From Tritonibacter mobilis (lineage in GTDB: Bacteria; Pseudomonadota; Alphaproteobacteria; Rhodobacterales; Rhodobacteraceae): a DNA stretch of 64,000 nucleotides. This document shows positions 50,975-59,287 of the stretch, one piece after another. The first letter of the stretch is position 1. Each line of letters starts with the position of its first letter. The notes under the pieces were generated by a model, which did no database searches, was not told where the DNA came from, and worked only from the letters and a program-made list of their open reading frames with translations. Position numbers and translations under genes: made by a program. The stretch spans positions 1 to 64,000 of the forward strand of contig NZ_LNWY01000018.1 in NCBI RefSeq assembly GCF_001681715.1. Direction: 5' to 3'.

Positions 50975-51220
50975 TTTTTGAGGATTTCTTGTAAGAATCG
51001 GTGCGTTGAGTCGCATCTTGCGGAGCTGTTCAAGGGCTCAAAAGAGGATTTTTGCAGGATGTGGGGTCATGGTCGCGCACCCACACCATATATATGCCTC
51101 ATTGTTGCCGCGAAAAACTTCCCCTATTTTCCCGCATTTCTTTCTGTTGAAAGCAGGCAGGTGGATTTTGTTTCTCTTATGTTCTCATCTTTTGGCAGGA
51201 TTGGGTGCAAAAAACCCTGA

Positions 51221-51325
51221 ATCCCATGGTTTGATGTGATTCGTTTTCGCTGGGAGCTATGCTTGGACCATGGTTTCCCATACCGCCCATGATTTCCCAT
51301 CAGCAGGGGTGCCGTGGTTTCCCAT
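51221..51325. repeat. scattered TTTCCCAT repeats
   Basis: TTTCCCAT occurs at 51274-51281, 51293-51300 and 51318-51325, two of them as TGGTTTCCCAT. ATCCCAT lies near 51221. Spacing is irregular (19 and 25 bp). The surrounding 51000-51330 region has no credible gene. Confidence 0.5.
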
Positions 51326-51335
51326 TGTGGCTGTT

Positions 51336-51405
51336 TGTAGCGTGACGGACTTTTTTGCTGTAGCGTGACGGACTTTTTTGCAGTGATTTACGGACTTTTT
51401 TACAG
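51336..51405. repeat. iteron-like tandem repeats, 23-bp unit
   Basis: A 23-bp unit containing GTAGCGTGACGGACTTTTTT occurs twice head to tail without change (51336-51358, 51359-51381). A third, diverged copy (51382-51405) keeps ACGGACTTTTTT. A short open frame through them on the minus strand is a by-product of the repeats. Iterons of plasmid or phage replicons look like this, but no initiator gene is nearby. Confidence 0.7.
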
Positions 51406-51431
51406 CAACCAGATTTTGGGCTGAAGTGGGA

Positions 51432-51449
51432 TTGAAGGGGCGTTTAAGC
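51432..51449. repeat. 18-bp direct repeat, left copy
   Basis: TTGAAGGGGCGTTTAAGC here is identical to 53036-53053. The two copies bracket the com / ABC-GNAT genes exactly. This copy lies six bases past the ABC-GNAT stop codon. Confidence 0.75.
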
Positions 51450-51455
51450 GCGGTT

Positions 51456-52538
51456 TCATTCGATGTAGCGAAACCCCTGCACGGCGCGCAAGTGCCCCGC
51501 CATGCCACCCTTCAGCCCGACCTGCTTTCTTGCCCCGCCGTACAGAAGGCATGAGGTCTGCATCCACTGATCATGCGCGCGCAACCGGCGGCACAGGCCC
51601 GGATGCGATGTGTTGATCAGGGTGGGCATCGGGCGCTCAAACCGGTTGACGCCGCGCCGCCACAGGGCGGCAACCTCAGTGAGAAACCGCAGCCCAATCC
51701 CCAAGCCCTGCCACTCTGGCAAAACAACAAAGCGGCAGGCGCGCGCCTCGCGCAGGCCGGGGCGGGGCGTAACCGCCAGATGGGCCACATCCACCCCCTC
51801 GGCGCGGGCGAGATAGAAGCTCCCAGCGATCACATTATTGGTTTTCAGGTAGTGATGCGGCTCAAAGGTGGGCCAATGGGAGCCGTCGGTTTGGTGGATT
51901 TCGACCTCAAGGCTGGGGCATCGTCGAAGACGCCTCCATGCAAATTCGCCGCCGCGTCCGGTATCGATCACCCAATCCGGCTGCAGCCAGTCTTCCACGT
52001 CATCATGGCAGGCCACGGCCACAAACTGGCCCGGTCCGCGCCGCCACGCTTTGCCAAAGGCCCCGGCGGCGATGGTCGCCACGCGACGGTCAATGGCCGA
52101 GGTGAACTCATCCATCACAAAGAGACCGGGGCGCTCGCACAGGACGCGGGCAAGATCGGCGCGGAATTTCTCGCCGGTGGAGAGCGCCGCATAGGGCCGC
52201 AGCCATGAGGGCACAGAGCCAAGGCCCACAGCCGAGAGGGCAGCGGTCACCGCATCAAACGACCCGCCCGGCGTGATCTCGTCCACGATGGCCCCTTTGC
52301 CCGGCCAGCGGTTGGCGCATTTGAGGCGGCGCGCACCAAAGAGCGCACGGGCAATGGAACTCTTGCCAGATCCCGAGGGGCCTTTGATCAGGCCGATCTG
52401 CCAAGGGCGGTCCTTTAGCGGGGCTTCCAGTGAGATTTTGAAATCTGCGTCGCCTTCGACATTGAAGAGACTGGACACGCGCGCGGCCCGATAGGTGTTG
52501 GGCAAAGGCGAGCGGTGGTGAACCGTGATCTGGGTCAT
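51456..52538 (-). CDS. ABC-ATPase/GNAT fusion, Mom-like DNA-modification candidate
   Basis: This is a 360-residue two-domain protein. The first half is a soluble ABC ATPase: Walker A GPSGSGKSS (53-61), signature-like LSTGEKFRADLAR (119-131), Walker B GLFVMDEF (138-145) and switch His in ACHDD (178). It has no membrane partner. The second half is a GNAT acyltransferase fold: FEPHHYLKTNNVIAGSFYLA, then the acyl-CoA loop VVLPEWQGLGIGLRFL (271-286). Phage Mu Mom is itself a GNAT-like enzyme that modifies adenine in DNA, and its gene follows com. Here a Com-like gene lies just upstream, so a Mom-type DNA modification enzyme with a fused ATPase is proposed. The ATG at 52538 overlaps the upstream stop and has AAGGTGG before it. 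Confidence 0.7.
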   Translation of the reverse strand: MTQITVHHRSPLPNTYRAARVSSLFNVEGDADFKISLEAPLKDRPWQIGLIKGPSGSGKSSIARALFGARRLKCANRWPGKGAIVDEITPGGSFDAVTAALSAVGLGSVPSWLRPYAALSTGEKFRADLARVLCERPGLFVMDEFTSAIDRRVATIAAGAFGKAWRRGPGQFVAVACHDDVEDWLQPDWVIDTGRGGEFAWRRLRRCPSLEVEIHQTDGSHWPTFEPHHYLKTNNVIAGSFYLARAEGVDVAHLAVTPRPGLREARACRFVVLPEWQGLGIGLRFLTEVAALWRRGVNRFERPMPTLINTSHPGLCRRLRAHDQWMQTSCLLYGGARKQVGLKGGMAGHLRAVQGFRYIE

Positions 52539-52735
52539 GTGTTCACCACCTTGCACTTGAGGCTTTCTGCGGTCAGCCGATCAAAGAGGGCGATCTGCGC
52601 CGCCTCATCTTTGACAATGACAATAACGCCGAACTGGCGCTTATAGCGGTTTCCCTTTGGTTTCCCGTGGGTATCAGCGGGAAGTGGGGGCAGGGGAATG
52701 TCTTTGGATTTGGGCACTTTGCCCGTCCTTTCCAT
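52535..52735 (-). CDS. small phage protein between com and ABC-GNAT
   Basis: This is a 66-residue basic protein of unknown family. After a Pro/Lys-rich start (KSKDIPLPPLPAD) it has a compact beta-alpha unit, RQFGVIVIVKDEAAQIALFDRLTAESLKCKVVNT. It overlaps the end of the Com-like gene and is coupled to the ABC-GNAT gene by an ATGA overlap. Its strict place in the cassette suggests it works with the modification enzyme; nothing in its sequence shows how. Confidence 0.65.
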   Translation of the reverse strand: MERTGKVPKSKDIPLPPLPADTHGKPKGNRYKRQFGVIVIVKDEAAQIALFDRLTAESLKCKVVNT

Positions 52736-52892
52736 CACGCTCTGGGCGTTCTGGTGAAGGGCTCAAGGGCCTCAATTCTAGGTGAGACCGGCACCGGGGG
52801 CACTTGATCGATAGCACCCCAGACAATGCGCCGGGTTCAAATTTGAATAGCAGTTTGCGGCATGCACCACAACGTTGCTCTTGTAGTTGCAA
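52674..52892 (-). CDS. com: Com-like zinc-finger translational activator
   Basis: This is a 72-residue protein resembling phage Mu Com: RCGACRKLLFKFEPG then LSIKCPRCRSHLELR gives a CxxC...CxxC zinc ribbon with the LLFK core seen in Com. In Mu, Com binds the mom mRNA and exposes its start codon. A TTG start at 52892 is proposed, with GGAG nine bases before it. The C-terminal 30 residues are a Pro/Arg-rich tail overlapping the next gene. The order com, small gene, GNAT enzyme parallels com-mom. Confidence 0.8.
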   Translation of the reverse strand: MQLQEQRCGACRKLLFKFEPGALSGVLSIKCPRCRSHLELRPLSPSPERPERDGKDGQSAQIQRHSPAPTSR

Positions 52893-53032
52893 CTGGAATC
52901 ACTCCATGAAAGCGCCGTCCTCGAGGACAGGAGGCGGCCATGAAGCGTGAGCTGGTCGGCGGGGTCGCGTGTGAGAATGTTGGCCCCGTGCAGATTGGCG
53001 CTTGCGCCCGTCTGCCCTCCGCTACTGTGAAG

Positions 53033-53064
53033 CCTTTGAAGGGGCGTTTAAGCCCCCTCAAAGG
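53033..53064 (-). terminator. hairpin after the tail-fibre gene, containing the right 18-bp repeat
   Basis: CCTTTGA-GGGGC / GCCCC-TCAAAGG (53033-53045 and 52-64 of the same line) is a 12-bp stem with one mismatch and a short loop. It starts right after the stop of the tail-fibre gene on the minus strand and probably ends the tail transcript. The right copy of the 18-bp direct repeat (53036-53053) is part of it. Confidence 0.6.
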
Positions 53065-53067
53065 CCC

Positions 53068-54939
53068 TTAAATCGCAGCGAGAATAAAGGCGAACAGCTC
53101 GTCATAGCGCACGCCTTGCCGGTCGTGGTACTCGGCCCCCTCCGGGGCTTCCTCGGCGCTGGCGAAGGTTTGCAGCTCTGTGCGGGCTTCAATGAGGGTC
53201 TCCAGTTCGCCGGTCTCCACTTGTTTTTTCACAAGCACGACCATTTCTTTTTCGACCTGCTGAACTTCGCCGGTCGGCTCACCTCGGGCATCCAGCACCG
53301 GCTCCTCAACTGTCACGGTGTGGGTGATCTCTTCCTCCACCTCTTCCATGATGGGCGCGGTCTCGGCGGGGATTTCGACCATTGCAGACCACCATTCATC
53401 CCAGCACAGAACGCCATAGCGCCACGGGTCCAGACCCTCGGCCTCAAAGGCGGCTGCGAGCTCTTGGGCAATGATACCGAAGTGCCAGCGGGCCGCGTCG
53501 CCTTTCTCGGCCACAGCGTCACGAATGCGGTATTTTTTTAGCAGGCTTTTTGCGACCACGGCCACACGGCGCTCGGCAGCATCCAAGTCCTGAATGTCGG
53601 TCTTGGTACACGCGTCGGACGTGTTGATTGTACCTGTTGCGGCGTAGACAACATCCCACCGATACGAGGGGAAACCACAGTTTTGTACACCGTCAGAACC
53701 CGGTCGAAACGTGCCATCAGGTGTTATGCGAGCCGCGTGCGTTCCCCCGGTATAGAAACTTACCCCGCCGTCAGTACCCGTGGAGCCTCTACCTTCCAGC
53801 AACAAGTCATATGACACAATTCCAACGGAACCAATAATGTCATCACGCTGCAATCTTATCCGGCTATCGTTGGCGCTTGATCCTCGAATGTGTAGGGCGT
53901 TTACCGGCGAAGTGGCCGCCTGACCAATGCCAAGGTAACTACCAATCGGCACGTTAAACTTTATGTCATCTTTGCCAATCTCTAGCGGGCGCGTGGCCTG
54001 AACCTCAATCAACAGCTTTGGGTTCGATGCGTTGGATGCCGGGTCAATTTTTGCGTAGAGGTGACCACCGGTGCTGTTGCCGCTCAGGGTATGCTTCACG
54101 CCGCTATCAGCGTCAGTAAGGTTCAGGTACGGGCCAGAGTTGCGAATTTCAATGTTGTCAGGCGTGACGCCCGCGCTGTTGACAATGATAGCCTTTTCCC
54201 AATCCGACCAACCGTAGGTCTGGGTCTTATGGCGTGCAAATATTTGTTGAGCTTCATGTCCTCTCGTCACAGCGATCTGCACGTAAGCATCGGCTGAGCG
54301 TACAAGGTGCTGTACGACAACAGGACCGGCTGGTGGGCTGTTTGCAATCCCAGCTTCCCCGCCACGCCAAAGGCCAGTTGTCGCTCCAATATCATTAAGA
54401 TCGTTGTTCGGGGGAATTAACGCAACGCCGCCCAAACCAAACGCCCCCACTTTCATGAGTTTATCTTCAGTCGCATCTGAGAGGCTCGCCTGCACCGCAG
54501 CGCCTGAAGCCTTCCCGCCCTTCAAGCGCAATTGCCACTCATCGCCCGCCTTCAACCCCACCTCATTGGAGGACGGATTGCCCATGCCAGTGTCGCGGTC
54601 TGCGTCAAACACAATGTCGCCTGTAAACCGCCCCTGACCCACGGTGTTATAAAAACCCTGATAGTTGCCCAGAAGTTCCTGCAGTGCCGCTGCAAGGTCG
54701 AGGTTATGCGAGCCGGTGGGGAAGACCGCATATGCCTGTCCCGCTGCTGTAGAACCCTGATAAGGCGCCTTGAGCGTGATGGTGTCGGCGCTATCGACGG
54801 TCAGGATCTCATAGACCCGCCCGTCCGGGCCGACAAAGCCCCAGCCGTTTTGCATCGCGCCAAACCAATCGGTGCCCGCGCCGGTGACGGTGGCGTTGCC
54901 ATTGGTCACAGTGACCGTGCCTGATGATACCCAAGCCAT
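53068..54939 (-). CDS. phage tail fibre with S74-type intramolecular chaperone
   Basis: This is a 623-residue tail-fibre protein. The N-terminal part (VTVTNGNATVTGAGTDWFGAM, split here) is the collar-like repeat seen at the base of tail fibres. The middle is beta-rich. From about residue 455 the CTKTDIQDLDAAERRVAVVAKSLLKKYR region and KGDAARWHFGIIAQELAAAFEAEG form a Peptidase_S74 chaperone domain, which cuts itself off after trimer folding. A C-terminal coiled coil (VEEEITHTVTVEEP, VEKEMVVLVKKQVE) follows. It would recognise the host surface. It is the last gene of the tail unit. Confidence 0.85.
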   Translation of the reverse strand: MAWVSSGTVTVTNGNATVTGAGTDWFGAMQNGWGFVGPDGRVYEILTVDSADTITLKAPYQGSTAAGQAYAVFPTGSHNLDLAAALQELLGNYQGFYNTVGQGRFTGDIVFDADRDTGMGNPSSNEVGLKAGDEWQLRLKGGKASGAAVQASLSDATEDKLMKVGAFGLGGVALIPPNNDLNDIGATTGLWRGGEAGIANSPPAGPVVVQHLVRSADAYVQIAVTRGHEAQQIFARHKTQTYGWSDWEKAIIVNSAGVTPDNIEIRNSGPYLNLTDADSGVKHTLSGNSTGGHLYAKIDPASNASNPKLLIEVQATRPLEIGKDDIKFNVPIGSYLGIGQAATSPVNALHIRGSSANDSRIRLQRDDIIGSVGIVSYDLLLEGRGSTGTDGGVSFYTGGTHAARITPDGTFRPGSDGVQNCGFPSYRWDVVYAATGTINTSDACTKTDIQDLDAAERRVAVVAKSLLKKYRIRDAVAEKGDAARWHFGIIAQELAAAFEAEGLDPWRYGVLCWDEWWSAMVEIPAETAPIMEEVEEEITHTVTVEEPVLDARGEPTGEVQQVEKEMVVLVKKQVETGELETLIEARTELQTFASAEEAPEGAEYHDRQGVRYDELFAFILAAI

Positions 54940-55322
54940 TATTGATTTTCCTCTTCAGGGACAGAAAGTTCGAAGTTTTCAGTTTGGTAAGGCCAGAGGC
55001 GGACACGCACCTGCACGGTGCTGCCAGCCGCAATGCCGGATTGTGCGAGCGAGAACTCGGTGACGGATACGGGCAAGTCGGAGCTGTTGATTTGCACCAC
55101 GGCCTCTGCCGGGATTTCAGAGACGAATGCGCCGCTGATCGACAGGCTCATCTTGGGTCGCTCTTGCAGCACGCCGCCGGGCACATAGTGCGTGACGTCC
55201 GAGTGCTTGCCGTCGAGATAGCCGGTCTCGTCGTCGTCAACCGGCGTATAGGTCTCGGGCACATCCAGAGCGCGAAGGATTGCGCCGGTCTGTTTGGAGT
55301 AAACGGAAATCTCTTTGCTCAT
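54939..55322 (-). CDS. small phage tail-associated protein
   Basis: This is a 127-residue protein of unknown family, beta-rich (YVPGGVLQERPKMSLSI, IAAGSTVQVRVRLW), with no signal peptide. It is coupled at both ends: four-base overlap with the J-like gene before it and one-base overlap with the tail-fibre gene after it. Its position suggests a fibre adaptor or assembly chaperone. That is inference from gene order. Confidence 0.7.
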   Translation of the reverse strand: MSKEISVYSKQTGAILRALDVPETYTPVDDDETGYLDGKHSDVTHYVPGGVLQERPKMSLSISGAFVSEIPAEAVVQINSSDLPVSVTEFSLAQSGIAAGSTVQVRVRLWPYQTENFELSVPEEENQ

Positions 55323-58300
55323 CGTTTGGTTTCCTCAACTTGCAGAAAGCGATTGAAGACATGCGCGGAGGCCGACATGCTTCCCGCCTTCAGGCGGGCA
55401 TGCAGAGAGACCCGATGCGTTCCCTCACCCGGCGTGACTGTCATCATGATGGTTTTCAGGTCGGCGTAGAAAATCGGCGTCGGCACAATATGCGCAGATG
55501 CGGTGCCGTTGACTGAGATGTTGACCCATCCGCCGCCCTCACCGACATATGTGCTGCCGCGTGCAGTAAACCCTACTGGGTAGCTCTGCTGCTGCATGAA
55601 GATCCCGGCGCTGACCGTGAAGACACGCTGAGGCGCACCATTGACGCGCACCTCGATCTCTATGGCCGAGGCCCCATCGACCTGAATATTCGCCTGCAGC
55701 GACATGGTGTTGCCGGAGCACTCCACATTGTCGATTGCGAGCACTTCTTGGTAGCTTGAGGACAGGTAGAAATCGGACCCGGCAAAAGCCGCGAAATTGT
55801 TGGTAATCGCACCCTCTGCGATGTTGGCGGTGTGGATGTCCGCGCGCCCGATGATGGCCCTGCGGACATAGATGTCCTCCATGTAAACGCCGGGCGGGTA
55901 ATAGATCTCGTCAATCGTGCGCCCCACGGTAAAGACCGAGAACGGCACGGTGAGGGATGATCCATCCGGCGCGGAAATCGTGAAGCTATCGGCGGCAAAG
56001 GCAACAGAGCTGCTGACCGCGCCATCGTCGCCCGCCTCCGCTGCGATCACCATGCCAGTGGCAACGCCATTCACGTTCACGCGCAGCATGTGCCGCCCTG
56101 AGATACCGTCGACACTCTCCGAGAGGGTTTGCACGGTTGCGGTGTTTTCACCGACCGTTGTGGTGAGCGTGTTCAGTGATGCGGCAAGGGCCTCGCCCTG
56201 AGACGCGCGGGCGAGGCTTTCCTGCTCGATGAGCGCCATCGCATTGTCGATAGACGCGCCAATCTGCACAGACCGGATCGCGAAGGCCTCGCGGTCCTCG
56301 GTCACTTTTGCCCGCAGATCCTCGGTCGCATAGGCGATGTCTTGGCGGATGCGTTCACCATCGGCGTGAGCCTGCAAGAGGCTTGCCAGCGTCTGCTCTG
56401 CGGCTTCCTCATCGGCGGCCAGAAGGTAGCGCGTGTCTGCGACGGTCTGGGTAAGCTGCGGCCCATCAAAGGCGCTGAGCACTTGTTCTGCGGTCTGAAC
56501 GCGGCCCTGCAAGGTCTCTAGCTGCGTCTGTTCGGCCTTGAGGCTGATGGCCTGTTGCGCGGCATCCAGTTCGGTCTCGGCGGTGGAAAGGCGCGTGATC
56601 AGCCCATCGACAACGGTCTGCGTGGCCGTTTCCTTCAGGGTCCCATTGATCGCGTCCAGCTCCACCTCCACTTGGTTGACCTGCAATTGCAGATCCTCGA
56701 CCAGCGGGAGCTGGCTTGGGTCCAGCAGCGCCTCTGTGATCTGACCGCGCACCCATGCTTGCGTGGCAGAAAGGGCGATACTGGCCTCAGCGGCGCTCAG
56801 GCGGATTTCAGCCTCGCTGATGCGCTCTGCCTCTTGCTCAAGCGCATAAATTCGCACCTTGCCGGTTTCTGGATCTGTCACGATCCCGGCGTCTGCGAAC
56901 TTGCCATCCACCTCGGACAGTTGTGTCGTCACCCACAGCACCTGATCGCCAATCATGGCAACTGCCTCGGACACGGTGCGCTGTTCCGCGGTGCGCAGAT
57001 CCACCTCGCGTTTCAGCGGCTGGATTTCATTGATGACCAGATCATCATCGAGGGCGGCGGCAACACTTGCGGCCTCATCCCCAACCGCGTCCCAGACGTC
57101 ATCGTCCAGTGCCCCCGGATTGATCCGCACATCAGGCGTTGTGACGGGCAGCCACCCAGACCACTTGGTCTGCCGCGTGGGTGCGATGGCTTTGCCGCGT
57201 ACTTCATAGTCAGCATTCGGCTGCACCGGGTGGTGGCGGTAGTTGCCCCCCGCGACATTGGTGGTGCTGACGGTATCGGCCTCGGCTTCAGGCCGCCCCT
57301 GCACGCGGATCTGGAAGGTCAGGCCGGTGCAGGTGTCAGATAGCCGACCGTCCCAGACAATGCGGATTGCGGGCGCATGGGCCTTGCCATCCGCTGCCGT
57401 GATGGTCTCACCGGCAACGGCCAAGCCGACAACGCCCGCGTCGGTCACCGGGATCGGGCCGGTCGGGTGCGGTGTCTCTGGCAGCTCCAGCGCCGGATCC
57501 GGGTCAAAGTCTGTCGGGTCGGTTTCGCGCAGCGAGAGGGAAACGTTCAGCGTCTGCAGGTCATAGGCCGCCTCGGTGATGCGGAAGGTCTTGGCGTCGT
57601 AGCCGTAGTCCTGAAGGCTCAAATGCACATTCTGCAGCGGACGCAGGCGGGCGTATTCACCGGGCAGGGGCAGGCGGTGGGTCCGAAACCGGCGGTTTTC
57701 CCGCAAGAGCGCATCGGTGAGCTGGCGCGCTTGTTCGGCGATGTAGACCATCGGCAGGTTCAGCTCGAAGAGCTTCTGGCGGCCATCCTCTGCGACCCAC
57801 TCGTCTTTGACGATGGTTTCCAGCGTGGAGGCCTCCCACAAAGAGGCCGGGCTGGTGTAGGTCGTGGTGACCGCGTTAAAGGTGTTTTCAAGGCCGGGAA
57901 AAGGGTCGTGCTGCCACGCCTGCGAGATCAGAACATCATCATCGGAAATCGTGGCCGAGGCGGCGGTGGCGCTGCCGACAATCGGATACCAATAGCCGCC
58001 GGTCTCGACGATCTGGGCATTCGCGGCGGAAAACAACTCTTCCAGAAAGTCGGCGGGGGCCTCTTCAAACTTGACTTCAAACCCGGCTTCAAACTGCGCG
58101 CGGCCAACCCCTTCAATGCCAATATCGCAGGCGTCCATGGCCTCGGCCCACTCGGTATAGGGCAGGTCTTCAGCCGGAAACCCGCCGCCCCAGATATCGC
58201 CACTCGGTAGGGCGATGCCGCGCAGGACATTGTAGGCAATGACCAGGGGATTGGCGGTCTGATCCCAGCTTGCCGGATCATTGAAACGGTGCGATCCGTT

Positions 58301-58528
58301 GCCGCCCACGGTGCTGTCTTTGCGGATGTCATAGAGCGGCGGGCCATCCAGCTCAAAGGCGTATCTGGGCACGCCGCTGGGGTAAAGATGATCGCGCCGA
58401 TAGAAGTAAAGCACCGCATAGCAAGTGCCGGTCAGGATGTGGTCGGGGGTCCATGGCCGGTCGGCAGCGCCGCCGCGCCAGTTCACCAGATGACTATGCG
58501 CGGTGGTATTGCGCTGAGGTCTCTGCAC
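55319..58528 (-). CDS. phage tail-tip protein J-like, N-terminally truncated
   Basis: This 1069-residue protein matches the central and C-terminal parts of tail-tip/host-specificity J proteins. There is a baseplate-like domain (YRRDHLYPSGVPRYAFELDGPPLYDIRKD, shown in part; FNAVTTTYTSP), a fibronectin-type stretch (PAIRIVWDGRLSDTCTGLTFQIRV region), a long coiled-coil segment (residues about 540-800) and a tip domain. It opens at WTPDHILTGTCYAVLYF with a GTG start; complete J proteins have 100-200 residues before that point. The upstream phage genes are missing, so the prophage is cut here. Host DNA begins within about 90 bases. Confidence 0.8.
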   Translation of the reverse strand: MQRPQRNTTAHSHLVNWRGGAADRPWTPDHILTGTCYAVLYFYRRDHLYPSGVPRYAFELDGPPLYDIRKDSTVGGNGSHRFNDPASWDQTANPLVIAYNVLRGIALPSGDIWGGGFPAEDLPYTEWAEAMDACDIGIEGVGRAQFEAGFEVKFEEAPADFLEELFSAANAQIVETGGYWYPIVGSATAASATISDDDVLISQAWQHDPFPGLENTFNAVTTTYTSPASLWEASTLETIVKDEWVAEDGRQKLFELNLPMVYIAEQARQLTDALLRENRRFRTHRLPLPGEYARLRPLQNVHLSLQDYGYDAKTFRITEAAYDLQTLNVSLSLRETDPTDFDPDPALELPETPHPTGPIPVTDAGVVGLAVAGETITAADGKAHAPAIRIVWDGRLSDTCTGLTFQIRVQGRPEAEADTVSTTNVAGGNYRHHPVQPNADYEVRGKAIAPTRQTKWSGWLPVTTPDVRINPGALDDDVWDAVGDEAASVAAALDDDLVINEIQPLKREVDLRTAEQRTVSEAVAMIGDQVLWVTTQLSEVDGKFADAGIVTDPETGKVRIYALEQEAERISEAEIRLSAAEASIALSATQAWVRGQITEALLDPSQLPLVEDLQLQVNQVEVELDAINGTLKETATQTVVDGLITRLSTAETELDAAQQAISLKAEQTQLETLQGRVQTAEQVLSAFDGPQLTQTVADTRYLLAADEEAAEQTLASLLQAHADGERIRQDIAYATEDLRAKVTEDREAFAIRSVQIGASIDNAMALIEQESLARASQGEALAASLNTLTTTVGENTATVQTLSESVDGISGRHMLRVNVNGVATGMVIAAEAGDDGAVSSSVAFAADSFTISAPDGSSLTVPFSVFTVGRTIDEIYYPPGVYMEDIYVRRAIIGRADIHTANIAEGAITNNFAAFAGSDFYLSSSYQEVLAIDNVECSGNTMSLQANIQVDGASAIEIEVRVNGAPQRVFTVSAGIFMQQQSYPVGFTARGSTYVGEGGGWVNISVNGTASAHIVPTPIFYADLKTIMMTVTPGEGTHRVSLHARLKAGSMSASAHVFNRFLQVEETKR

Positions 58529-58618
58529 TGCTCATCTGACTTAGATCAAAGACGAAACAGGGCCTTGCTGCGCATGAGCATATGCAAACGCGCGTCACAT
58601 TAAATATGAGGTTTCGAA

Positions 58619-58801
58619 ATGCTTCGCTTGGCCCTGATCTTGCACATCTTTATCGGCTCCACGCTGGGTGGCAGCGCCGTCATTGCCGCGCTGGTGATGG
58701 GGTATTCCACGATCTGGACGATCCTGATCGCGGCTGTGGTGGGCTTTGTGCTGGCGGTGCCAGTCAGTGCGATCGTTGCGCGCAAGCTTTATGGCGGGTG
58801 A
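58619..58801 (+). CDS. small two-helix membrane protein
   Basis: This is a 60-residue protein with two hydrophobic helices (LALILHIFIGSTLGGSAVIAALV in part, and TILIAAVVGFVLAVPVSAIVA) and a short loop. It is common in Rhodobacteraceae and often mislabelled CTP synthetase in databases, with no similarity to that enzyme. Function is unknown. It is the first host gene beside the prophage remnant. Confidence 0.75.
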   Translation: MLRLALILHIFIGSTLGGSAVIAALVMGYSTIWTILIAAVVGFVLAVPVSAIVARKLYGG

Positions 58802-58835
58802 GCCGGGGCAGCGGCGCGCTGTGATGGTCGTGACG

Positions 58836-58973
58836 TCAGAGCGCGTTTTGCACGTTTTGGGCCGTGCCTGAAATCGCCTCTCCGGCTTTTTGCAGGTCAC
58901 GGCCTGCGCCTTTGGTGGTCTCACAGGCGGCAAGGCCGAAGATCACAAGGGTCAGGAGCAGAGGGCGGATCAT
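58836..58973 (-). CDS. entericidin-type lipoprotein
   Basis: This is a 45-residue precursor. The signal sequence RPLLLTLVIFGLAAC ends with a lipobox (GLAAC) at Cys 16. The mature part TTKGAGRDLQKAGEAISGTAQNV is the short amphipathic helix of entericidin A/B-like lipoproteins. These are small cell-envelope lipoproteins found in many proteobacteria, with an uncertain role. The ATG at 58973 is the only sensible start. Confidence 0.85.
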   Translation of the reverse strand: MIRPLLLTLVIFGLAACETTKGAGRDLQKAGEAISGTAQNVQNAL

Positions 58974-59287
58974 GGGCGGGTCTCCATCGCGGTGCGGTGC
59001 CGCGAGAGGGCGGCGTCTGATCTGATGAAAATTCCCGATGTTTTCGAAAATGGCAAGAGCGAAGACAAGGCGGCGCGCGCTGCATTCTGTGCAATTGCAG
59101 CATAAATTTGTCGCTTCTTTATCGCCCTTAGGTTGCGTTGACGCGGTATTATACCGGTGGTGAGCGGGGGATTCGTTGCATTGCAAGATGGCGAATTTTC
59201 GCTTGGCTGCCCTTGGGGAGGGGCGTTGCACTTGTTTGCGTGAAGGCCAGCCCCAAATCAAAAGACAACTGTTTGCGAGGAGAGACG

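Follow-up and report, generated by a model that had tools for sequence, protein, structure and literature searches.

What does an ABC-ATPase-GNAT fusion do in the place behind com, where phage Mu has mom? The question is raised by a cassette in a 64,000-nucleotide stretch of Tritonibacter mobilis DNA (contig NZ_LNWY01000018.1, positions 1 to 64,000; hereafter the window), in which a Com-like zinc-ribbon gene (com), a small gene that we label X and an ABC-ATPase-GNAT fusion (ABC-GNAT) lie on the minus strand. The original prediction, made from the letters alone, read the cassette as a Mom-like DNA modification module with a fused ATPase, resembling Mu com-mom and carried as prophage cargo. The three genes are present where it placed them, with matches to PF10122, phrog_28816 and phrog_11143, and all three overlap as it said: com and X by 44 nt from a GTG start of X or 62 nt from an ATG start, and X and ABC-GNAT through a shared ATGA. 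Taken as a whole, the locus is likely to be the right-end DNA-modification cargo of a Mu-like phage, left in a truncated prophage. The cassette is very probably a DNA-modification cargo under the control of Com, and its enzyme joins an ATP-driven, motor-type domain to an acyl-transferring domain, the likely purpose being to mark viral DNA.

Com and the place behind it

The Com of the window matches PF10122 (E = 1.8e-8; 34.2 bits, with a cut-off of 22.9), and the four cysteines of its zinc ribbon are invariant in all 23 aligned sequences, that of Mu included. The Com protein of Mu is reported to recognise CC(N)2-3GAG within the loop of a hairpin, beside the structure that inhibits translation of mom (Nowacka et al. 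2019, PMC6483171). We scored as a site any CC(N)2-3GAG with a stem of at least three pairs, the closing C-G counted, in the leaders of 59 Com-X-ABC-GNAT loci; leaders whose first 60 nt duplicate another's were dropped (the window's own, equal to L015; L133, equal to L053; and L093, equal to L092), which left 56 distinct leaders. At least one site was found in 44 of these and at least two in 17, compared with a mean of 4.3 loci and a highest count of 10 in dinucleotide shuffles (n = 100). When synonymous codons were redrawn within the com frame, the observed count of 43 of 56 stood against a mean of 12.1 and a highest value of 22 in 200 draws. By the same rule the window has two sites ahead of X and the start of Mu com-mom has exactly one. 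When no stem was required, 9,743 nt of leader contained 104 motifs, 53 of them with at least three outer pairs; 61,407 nt of ABC-GNAT coding sequence contained 82, of which 5 had three or more such pairs. Outer pair 2 is paired in 74 of the 104 (C-G 35, G-C 34; shuffled mean 44.9, highest 64) and outer pair 3 in 64 (shuffled mean 46.0, highest 57), counts that are not independent events, as certain positions enter under both spacings and the leaders come from related sequences. Com itself was found in 7 of 385 genomes of a class-level survey, the window's own included, five of them above the cut-off, and a tblastn search with the window Com gave no match among phages at E up to 0.01.

When viral contigs were scanned with the Com alignment, at least 529 relatives were found among 600 stretches; we examined the best 80, many of which are near-identical, the independent number being far smaller. 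A hairpin site is present in all 80. By motif, the longest frame behind Com resembles a methyltransferase of the N6/N4 type or of D12 in 64, one of the C5 type in four and an ABC-GNAT in one. Pfam confirmed the gene behind Com as N6/N4 (L244), D12 (L180 and L152), C5 (L186 and L144) or Mom (L150), where L150 and L152 come from the genome survey and L144 from T. scottomollicae. In the latter species two Mu-type elements adjoin, one with Com and a C5 methyltransferase, the other with Com, X, ABC-GNAT and a formyltransferase-like gene (FMT). The right end of the first element, the part that we examined, touches the second, which is bounded by a 5-bp repeat, ACAAA (by eye), and the leaders around the hairpins of the two are almost identical. 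Pairs of Com and a DNA methyltransferase are apparently instances of a general, exchangeable modification slot. They share Com and hairpins with the cassette of the window and differ from it in transferring methyl groups by a methyltransferase, whereas the cassette has a GNAT with an ATPase. A prophage of P. fluorescens Pf-5 has a DNA-modification gene beside a cytosine methylase, plus a Com-like protein (PMC2647930); this fits such a slot, although the link itself is not stated there. These data indicate that in such phages DNA-modification genes can be exchanged for one another behind Com, where a conserved RNA switch is retained. We also noted that L144 (G005:C4, ~149854-151149) is a Mu-type right end whose Com and C5 cytosine methyltransferase adjoin the ABC-GNAT-bearing prophage, and that L179-L258 are Com and DNA methyltransferase pairs with Com-target hairpins.

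The likeness to Mu com-mom was borne out in part: the zinc ribbon, the overlapping frames, the hairpin before the modification gene and the position at a Mu-type right end after tail-fibre genes are all shared. The likeness ends at the enzyme, with ABC-GNAT instead of Mom, the extra gene X and, in many relatives, an FMT partner.

The ABC-GNAT enzyme and its partners

The fusion is a full-length member of phrog_11143 (E = 3.5e-118, residues 3-359). ABC_tran matches above its Pfam cut-off and general GNAT models match below theirs. In all 58 aligned sequences G53, S55, G56, G58, K59, S120, G122, D143, E144 and H178 (Walker A, signature, Walker B and H-switch) are invariant, as are Y230, Q277 and G278 of the GNAT half, with G280 kept in 57. 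The fused ATPase that had been predicted is thus real and its motifs are invariant, but such fusions form a published family and are not confined to the window. An ABC ATPase with a coupled GNAT had been reported and predicted to acylate DNA bases (Iyer et al. 2013, cited in PMC7824862), so that, as far as the citing text goes, ABC-GNAT is a known, widespread family already predicted as a DNA-base acylator; phage pT24, which PMC7824862 names as a carrier, matches at 35% over 63%. The cassette of the window differs from the system of many relatives in lying under Com, in a Mu-like element, and in having a stand-alone X where they have a ParB-X protein. A literature search for COG2401, an ABC-acetyltransferase fusion, gave no paper. 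By tblastn, ABC-GNAT occurs in 53 of 50,697 phage records; in a genome scan 471 of 510 stretches proved to be relatives, the best 80 being retained, and 118 related loci, some partial, were kept in all. At E<=1e-30 it is present in three of 18 genomes of the genus and four of 394 in a sample of the family, both counts including the window's own.

As judged by sequence and by predicted structure, ABC-GNAT is not a Mom, though it may work in Mom's place. The GNAT half gave no match to PF25680 (Mom) at E up to 1, in a Pfam library that scores a true Mom behind Com (L150) at 2e-78, and hhalign against ten Mom proteins gave E = 0.2 and a probability of 0.3% over 49 columns, with the HHY/HYS motifs aligned. 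The Q-G-x-G coenzyme A (CoA) loop kept in ABC-GNAT was not seen, by eye, in any of the ten aligned Moms. The AlphaFold2 model of the full chain, built with 58 sequences, has a pLDDT of 88.5; the best 50 matches in a fold search with it are ABC ATPases, so only the ABC half is represented. The GNAT half modelled alone (pLDDT 89.4) gave 199 PDB matches at E<=0.001, the best 50 of which are general GNATs, acting on proteins or small molecules or unassigned (query TM 0.51-0.67), and the Mom structure 8bv8 is absent from those 50. Both folds are supported by these models. In a viral fold library the top match is an ABC-GNAT relative from Leptospira phage LE4, and rank 14 in this search of BFVD is Orf128 of LP65, a phage that encodes a Mom-like protein, which may or may not be Orf128 itself. 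Membership in Mom was accordingly rejected, with no support from the Pfam, hhalign or PDB fold searches and none that is clear from BFVD. The original prediction had held that it would be refuted by a GNAT half closer in structure to protein or small-molecule acetyltransferases than to Mom, together with the lack of a modified base in host or phage DNA; general GNATs are what came closer, which is the first of these two conditions. Its DNA-modification reading is favoured by the hairpins and by the slot behind Com, and its Mom-like label was not sustained.

Two features lay beyond the reach of the original prediction, the FMT partner of the relatives and the nature of X, which is the tail of a ParB-like protein. 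The open frame of X matches phrog_28816 (E = 6.5e-11). X also matches the C-terminal ~37 residues of ParB-like proteins encoded ahead of ABC-GNAT in phages of Gordonia, Oenococcus and Pseudoalteromonas; our X profile was built from seven such stretches, the window's included. Upstream of ABC-GNAT in the 78 genome loci with enough sequence, we found Com in 52, ParB in eight, both in none and neither in 18, and X in 75 (fused to ParB in eight, alone in 67). The corresponding numbers for 27 viral loci were three, 16, none and eight, with X in 18, fused to ParB in 12. Because the two were never found together, Com and ParB are mutually exclusive ahead of ABC-GNAT in these 105 loci; at L123 they do lie on one stretch, but the Com match is 4 kb downstream. 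In phage Antuna a ParB protein that precedes a Mom lacks X (by eye), a single case that fits X being specific to ABC-GNAT. An HNH-repeat assignment for X was set aside, as its PF18780 match (E = 0.0088) is below the cut-off.

Of the 77 genome loci with enough downstream sequence, 63 encode a Formyl_trans_N protein after ABC-GNAT (two such proteins were Pfam-checked), as do 43 of the 51 that are Com-linked; the other eight imply that FMT is dispensable for at least some. None was found at the 33 viral loci with such room, most of them more distant relatives, in which our three-protein profile may miss divergent forms. We note that L059, L068, L086, L103, L122 and L127 have Com-X-ABC-GNAT and downstream room, with no FMT found. 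The usual formyltransferase triad is Asn-His-Asp. Among 71 distinct FMT frames we obtained 67 distinct proteins with HPSxLP, in which the residue two before the histidine is G in 56, I in five, A in five and V in one, and Asn in none; further on, a D-x-G was matched by pattern in 64 and recognised by eye in another two, and a frame break cuts the one that is left. Through Formyl_trans_N the relatives' FMT resembles the hydrolase domain of 10-formyl-tetrahydrofolate dehydrogenase, PurN/ArnA-type formyltransferases and the N-domain of HypX. Like formyltransferases, it keeps the active-site His and nearly always the Asp; unlike the usual ones, it has the triad Asn replaced in 67 of 67 and adjoins ABC-GNAT. 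The FMT of a Pseudomonas phage is nearest to the dehydrogenase hydrolase domain (2bw0, 8e-24), whose aligned motif likewise lacks the Asn, but for the Tritonibacter FMT the closest match is GART (4.8e-10), and the link to the dehydrogenase therefore does not hold throughout.

The recurrent FMT neighbour suggests, by analogy, a formyl mark made from 10-formyl-tetrahydrofolate. The dehydrogenase passes formyl via a phosphopantetheine arm (PMC8748788), and synthesis of formyl-CoA has been proposed for HypX, though not from direct experimental results (PMC6802093); from this chemistry we infer that formyl-CoA might serve the neighbouring CoA-dependent GNAT. It is conceivable, though on balance doubtful, that the four-gene form (Com, X, ABC-GNAT and FMT) is a DNA formylation system. 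FMT might then, as an equally tentative step, move the formyl group of 10-formyl-tetrahydrofolate to CoA, and the GNAT half, under ATP control, might move it onto a base amine. The lineage of the window, lacking a formyl supply, might use another acyl-CoA or be silent, a conjecture of the same low standing. This names a chemistry for mass spectrometry, formyl from folate.

Gene order, overlaps, motifs, predicted folds, hairpins and the equivalence of the slot are the observations on which we base a scheme for the cassette; what the scheme proposes is that the substrate is DNA, what X and ATP do, what kind of mark is made and that it protects from restriction. Com would bind the CC(N)2-3GAG hairpins where com and X overlap, which would allow X to be translated and, through the ATGA coupling, ABC-GNAT as well, much as Mu Com switches on translation of mom. 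The role of X would be to dock the enzyme onto its substrate. With ATP bound, the ABC half would form a dimer that clamps or scans the DNA, and the GNAT half would take an acyl group from a CoA thioester and attach it to the amine of a base, which would keep host restriction enzymes from cutting there. FMT, present in most Com-linked relatives, would probably supply or finish the acyl group. The scheme ties a widespread family to a regulator of known biology, which makes its function directly testable. The literature searched, which included neither Iyer et al. 2013 itself nor most subscription papers, gave nothing on Com with ABC-GNAT, X or FMT; we did not meet in it the ParB tail, the hairpin evidence or the recurrent FMT, and Iyer et al. 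2013 or 2009 may describe X, ParB or FMT.

Alternatives to the proposed DNA mark

Several observations weigh against a Com-controlled DNA mark. By our hairpin rule 12 of the 56 leaders have no site, and outer pair 1 carries no signal (69 of 104; shuffled mean 62.2, highest 70). Eleven of the 80 frames behind Com are other or too short and were not classed as modification enzymes, and at L157 Com is followed by an unrelated frame, with no modification gene recognised. The GNAT half resembles general protein and small-molecule acetyltransferases, which leaves room for a protein substrate. The literature searched gave no biochemical evidence for any ABC-GNAT member. Finally, the window has no FMT gene, and with the remnant state of the prophage its copy may be silent.

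The alternative that survives best is that the cassette is an inactive relic in this genome, the prophage being mostly gone and its last gene lost, which we consider somewhat unlikely. The original prediction of prophage cargo stands as to phage cargo, while the prophage is reduced to a remnant of ~7.2 kb (51336 to ~58530) with genes of host appearance on both sides. No Mu-type transposase gene is present in the element, and the genome's single match to PF09299 lies on a different contig; L016 (a 38.5-kb virus record) and the cassette contig of T. scottomollicae DSM 25328 do have a transposase. In a tree of 117 sequences the window groups with L015 and L016 and next with L053 (support 1.0 each), within a nine-member clade (support 1.0). 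FMT is present in all six judgeable members besides the window, L015 and L016 ending too early; in L053 (T. scottomollicae DSM 25328, G005) it lies between ABC-GNAT and the repeat sequence, and in the window the repeat directly follows ABC-GNAT. Judged from these relatives, the lineage of the window has lost FMT. In a near relative, Phaeobacter sp. HF9A (L129, the same stretch as L134), the ABC-GNAT frame is broken and no FMT lies within the 1.1 kb examined. Against a relic, the three frames and both hairpins of the window are intact, and its ABC-GNAT differs from those of L016 and L015 at 24 and 31 synonymous and four and three nonsynonymous positions (ratios of nonsynonymous to synonymous rates, dN/dS, 0.054 and 0.031; 0.135 to L053). 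The ABC-GNAT of L016 is 99% identical to the window copy and that of T. scottomollicae 80-81%. These low ratios, as comparisons of coding sequence, show constraint on the ABC-GNAT family and are not proof of a working window copy, because the pairs include the branches of other lineages.

Less probable is an enzyme that acylates a protein, such as a host restriction enzyme, RNA polymerase or a phage protein, with the ABC half as a gate. The PDB fold matches listed, protein, small-molecule or unassigned GNATs such as RimI, NatF and PaiA, and the general character of the Pfam matches favour such a target. Behind Com, however, 68 of the best 80 genes are DNA methyltransferase-like by motif, the six that were Pfam-checked are methyltransferases or Mom, and the ParB-like partners of relatives point to DNA, which together make a protein target unlikely.

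We consider it improbable that the cassette is an anti-phage defence or toxin module directed at other phages rather than a self-protection mark. Residues 114-195 of the ABC half do weakly match mad3 of the MADS defence system (E = 6e-12), the cassette has outlasted most of the prophage and the family is under purifying selection. That match, however, is limited to the stretch with the signature and Walker B, the cassette showed neither a nuclease nor another effector, and the Com-controlled place otherwise holds mostly DNA modification. A true Mom system, with the GNAT half as a divergent Mom making methylcarbamoyl-adenine, is least probable, for the adjoining Com, the com-mom geometry, the common HHY/HYS-like motif and the LP65 match are outweighed by the profile, fold and CoA-loop comparisons above.

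The remnant and its surroundings

The positions of the cassette and of the rest of the remnant are given in Table 1. In transcription order on the minus strand come the tail fibre gene, repeat copy 2, com, X, ABC-GNAT, repeat copy 1 and the ACGGACTTTTTT repeats. The open frame of X reaches an ATG (52535-52735), and the GTG at 52717 is the likelier start, with AAAGGA before it (by eye).

Table 1. Coordinates of the cassette, its hairpins and repeats, and the rest of the prophage remnant in the window.
Feature	Position	Strand	Remarks
Mu-type right end	51336-51405	+	three ACGGACTTTTTT repeats, spacing 23 and 22
18-bp exact direct repeat TTGAAGGGGCGTTTAAGC, copy 1	51432-51449	.	immediately behind ABC-GNAT
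ABC-ATPase-GNAT fusion, 360 aa	51456-52538	-	ATG start overlaps stop of X
GNAT half, ~residues 204-360	51459-51929	-	HHYL motif, CoA loop PEWQGLGIG
ABC-ATPase half, ~residues 1-203	51930-52538	-	Walker A GPSGSGKSS, signature LSTGE, Walker B VMDEF, H-switch H178
Small gene X, 60 aa from GTG	52535-52717	-	stand-alone form of C-terminal domain of ParB-like proteins
Com-like zinc-ribbon gene	52674-52892	-	TTG start uncertain; 3' end overlaps X start
Com-target-like hairpin 2	52737-52749	-	stem ACGC/GCGT, loop CCAGA; directly upstream of X
Com-target-like hairpin 1	52760-52771	-	stem GGC/GCC, loop CCTTGA
18-bp repeat, copy 2	53036-53053	.	between com and tail gene
Tail genes, remainder of remnant	53068-58528	-	S74-type tail fibre, small gene of unknown function, J-like tail gene

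The cassette stops 120 bp short of the Mu-type right end, and the element probably begins with TGTAGCG at 51336. From their position and by analogy with Mu, we infer that the right-end repeats are transposase sites; repeats like ACGGACTTTTTT also terminate the Mu-like elements of T. scottomollicae. The tail fibre gene (53068-54939) carries an S74 chaperone domain, and the J-like tail gene lacks ~157 N-terminal positions, beginning at position 158 of the family profile. To the left of 51336 lie genes that by sequence and order look like the host genes mraZ, rsmH, ftsL and ftsI, and to the right of ~58530 the reading frames are again host-like in appearance. No similarity was found between the flank of the window and the left flank of the T. 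scottomollicae elements (70 to ~150 kb of contig), so a shared insertion place is supported from the right side only. An Rfam search of 51000-59000 gave 0 matches.

The limits that the original prediction gave the cassette, 51432 and 53053, turn out to be the outer ends of the 18-bp direct repeat that flanks all of it, possibly a recombination or terminator sequence. Single copies of this repeat, or of its core, lie at one or other end in L053, L015 and L016, and the contig of L015 stops at it. Directly outside the prophage end, at 51268-51325, are three CCATGGTTTCCCAT-like copies.

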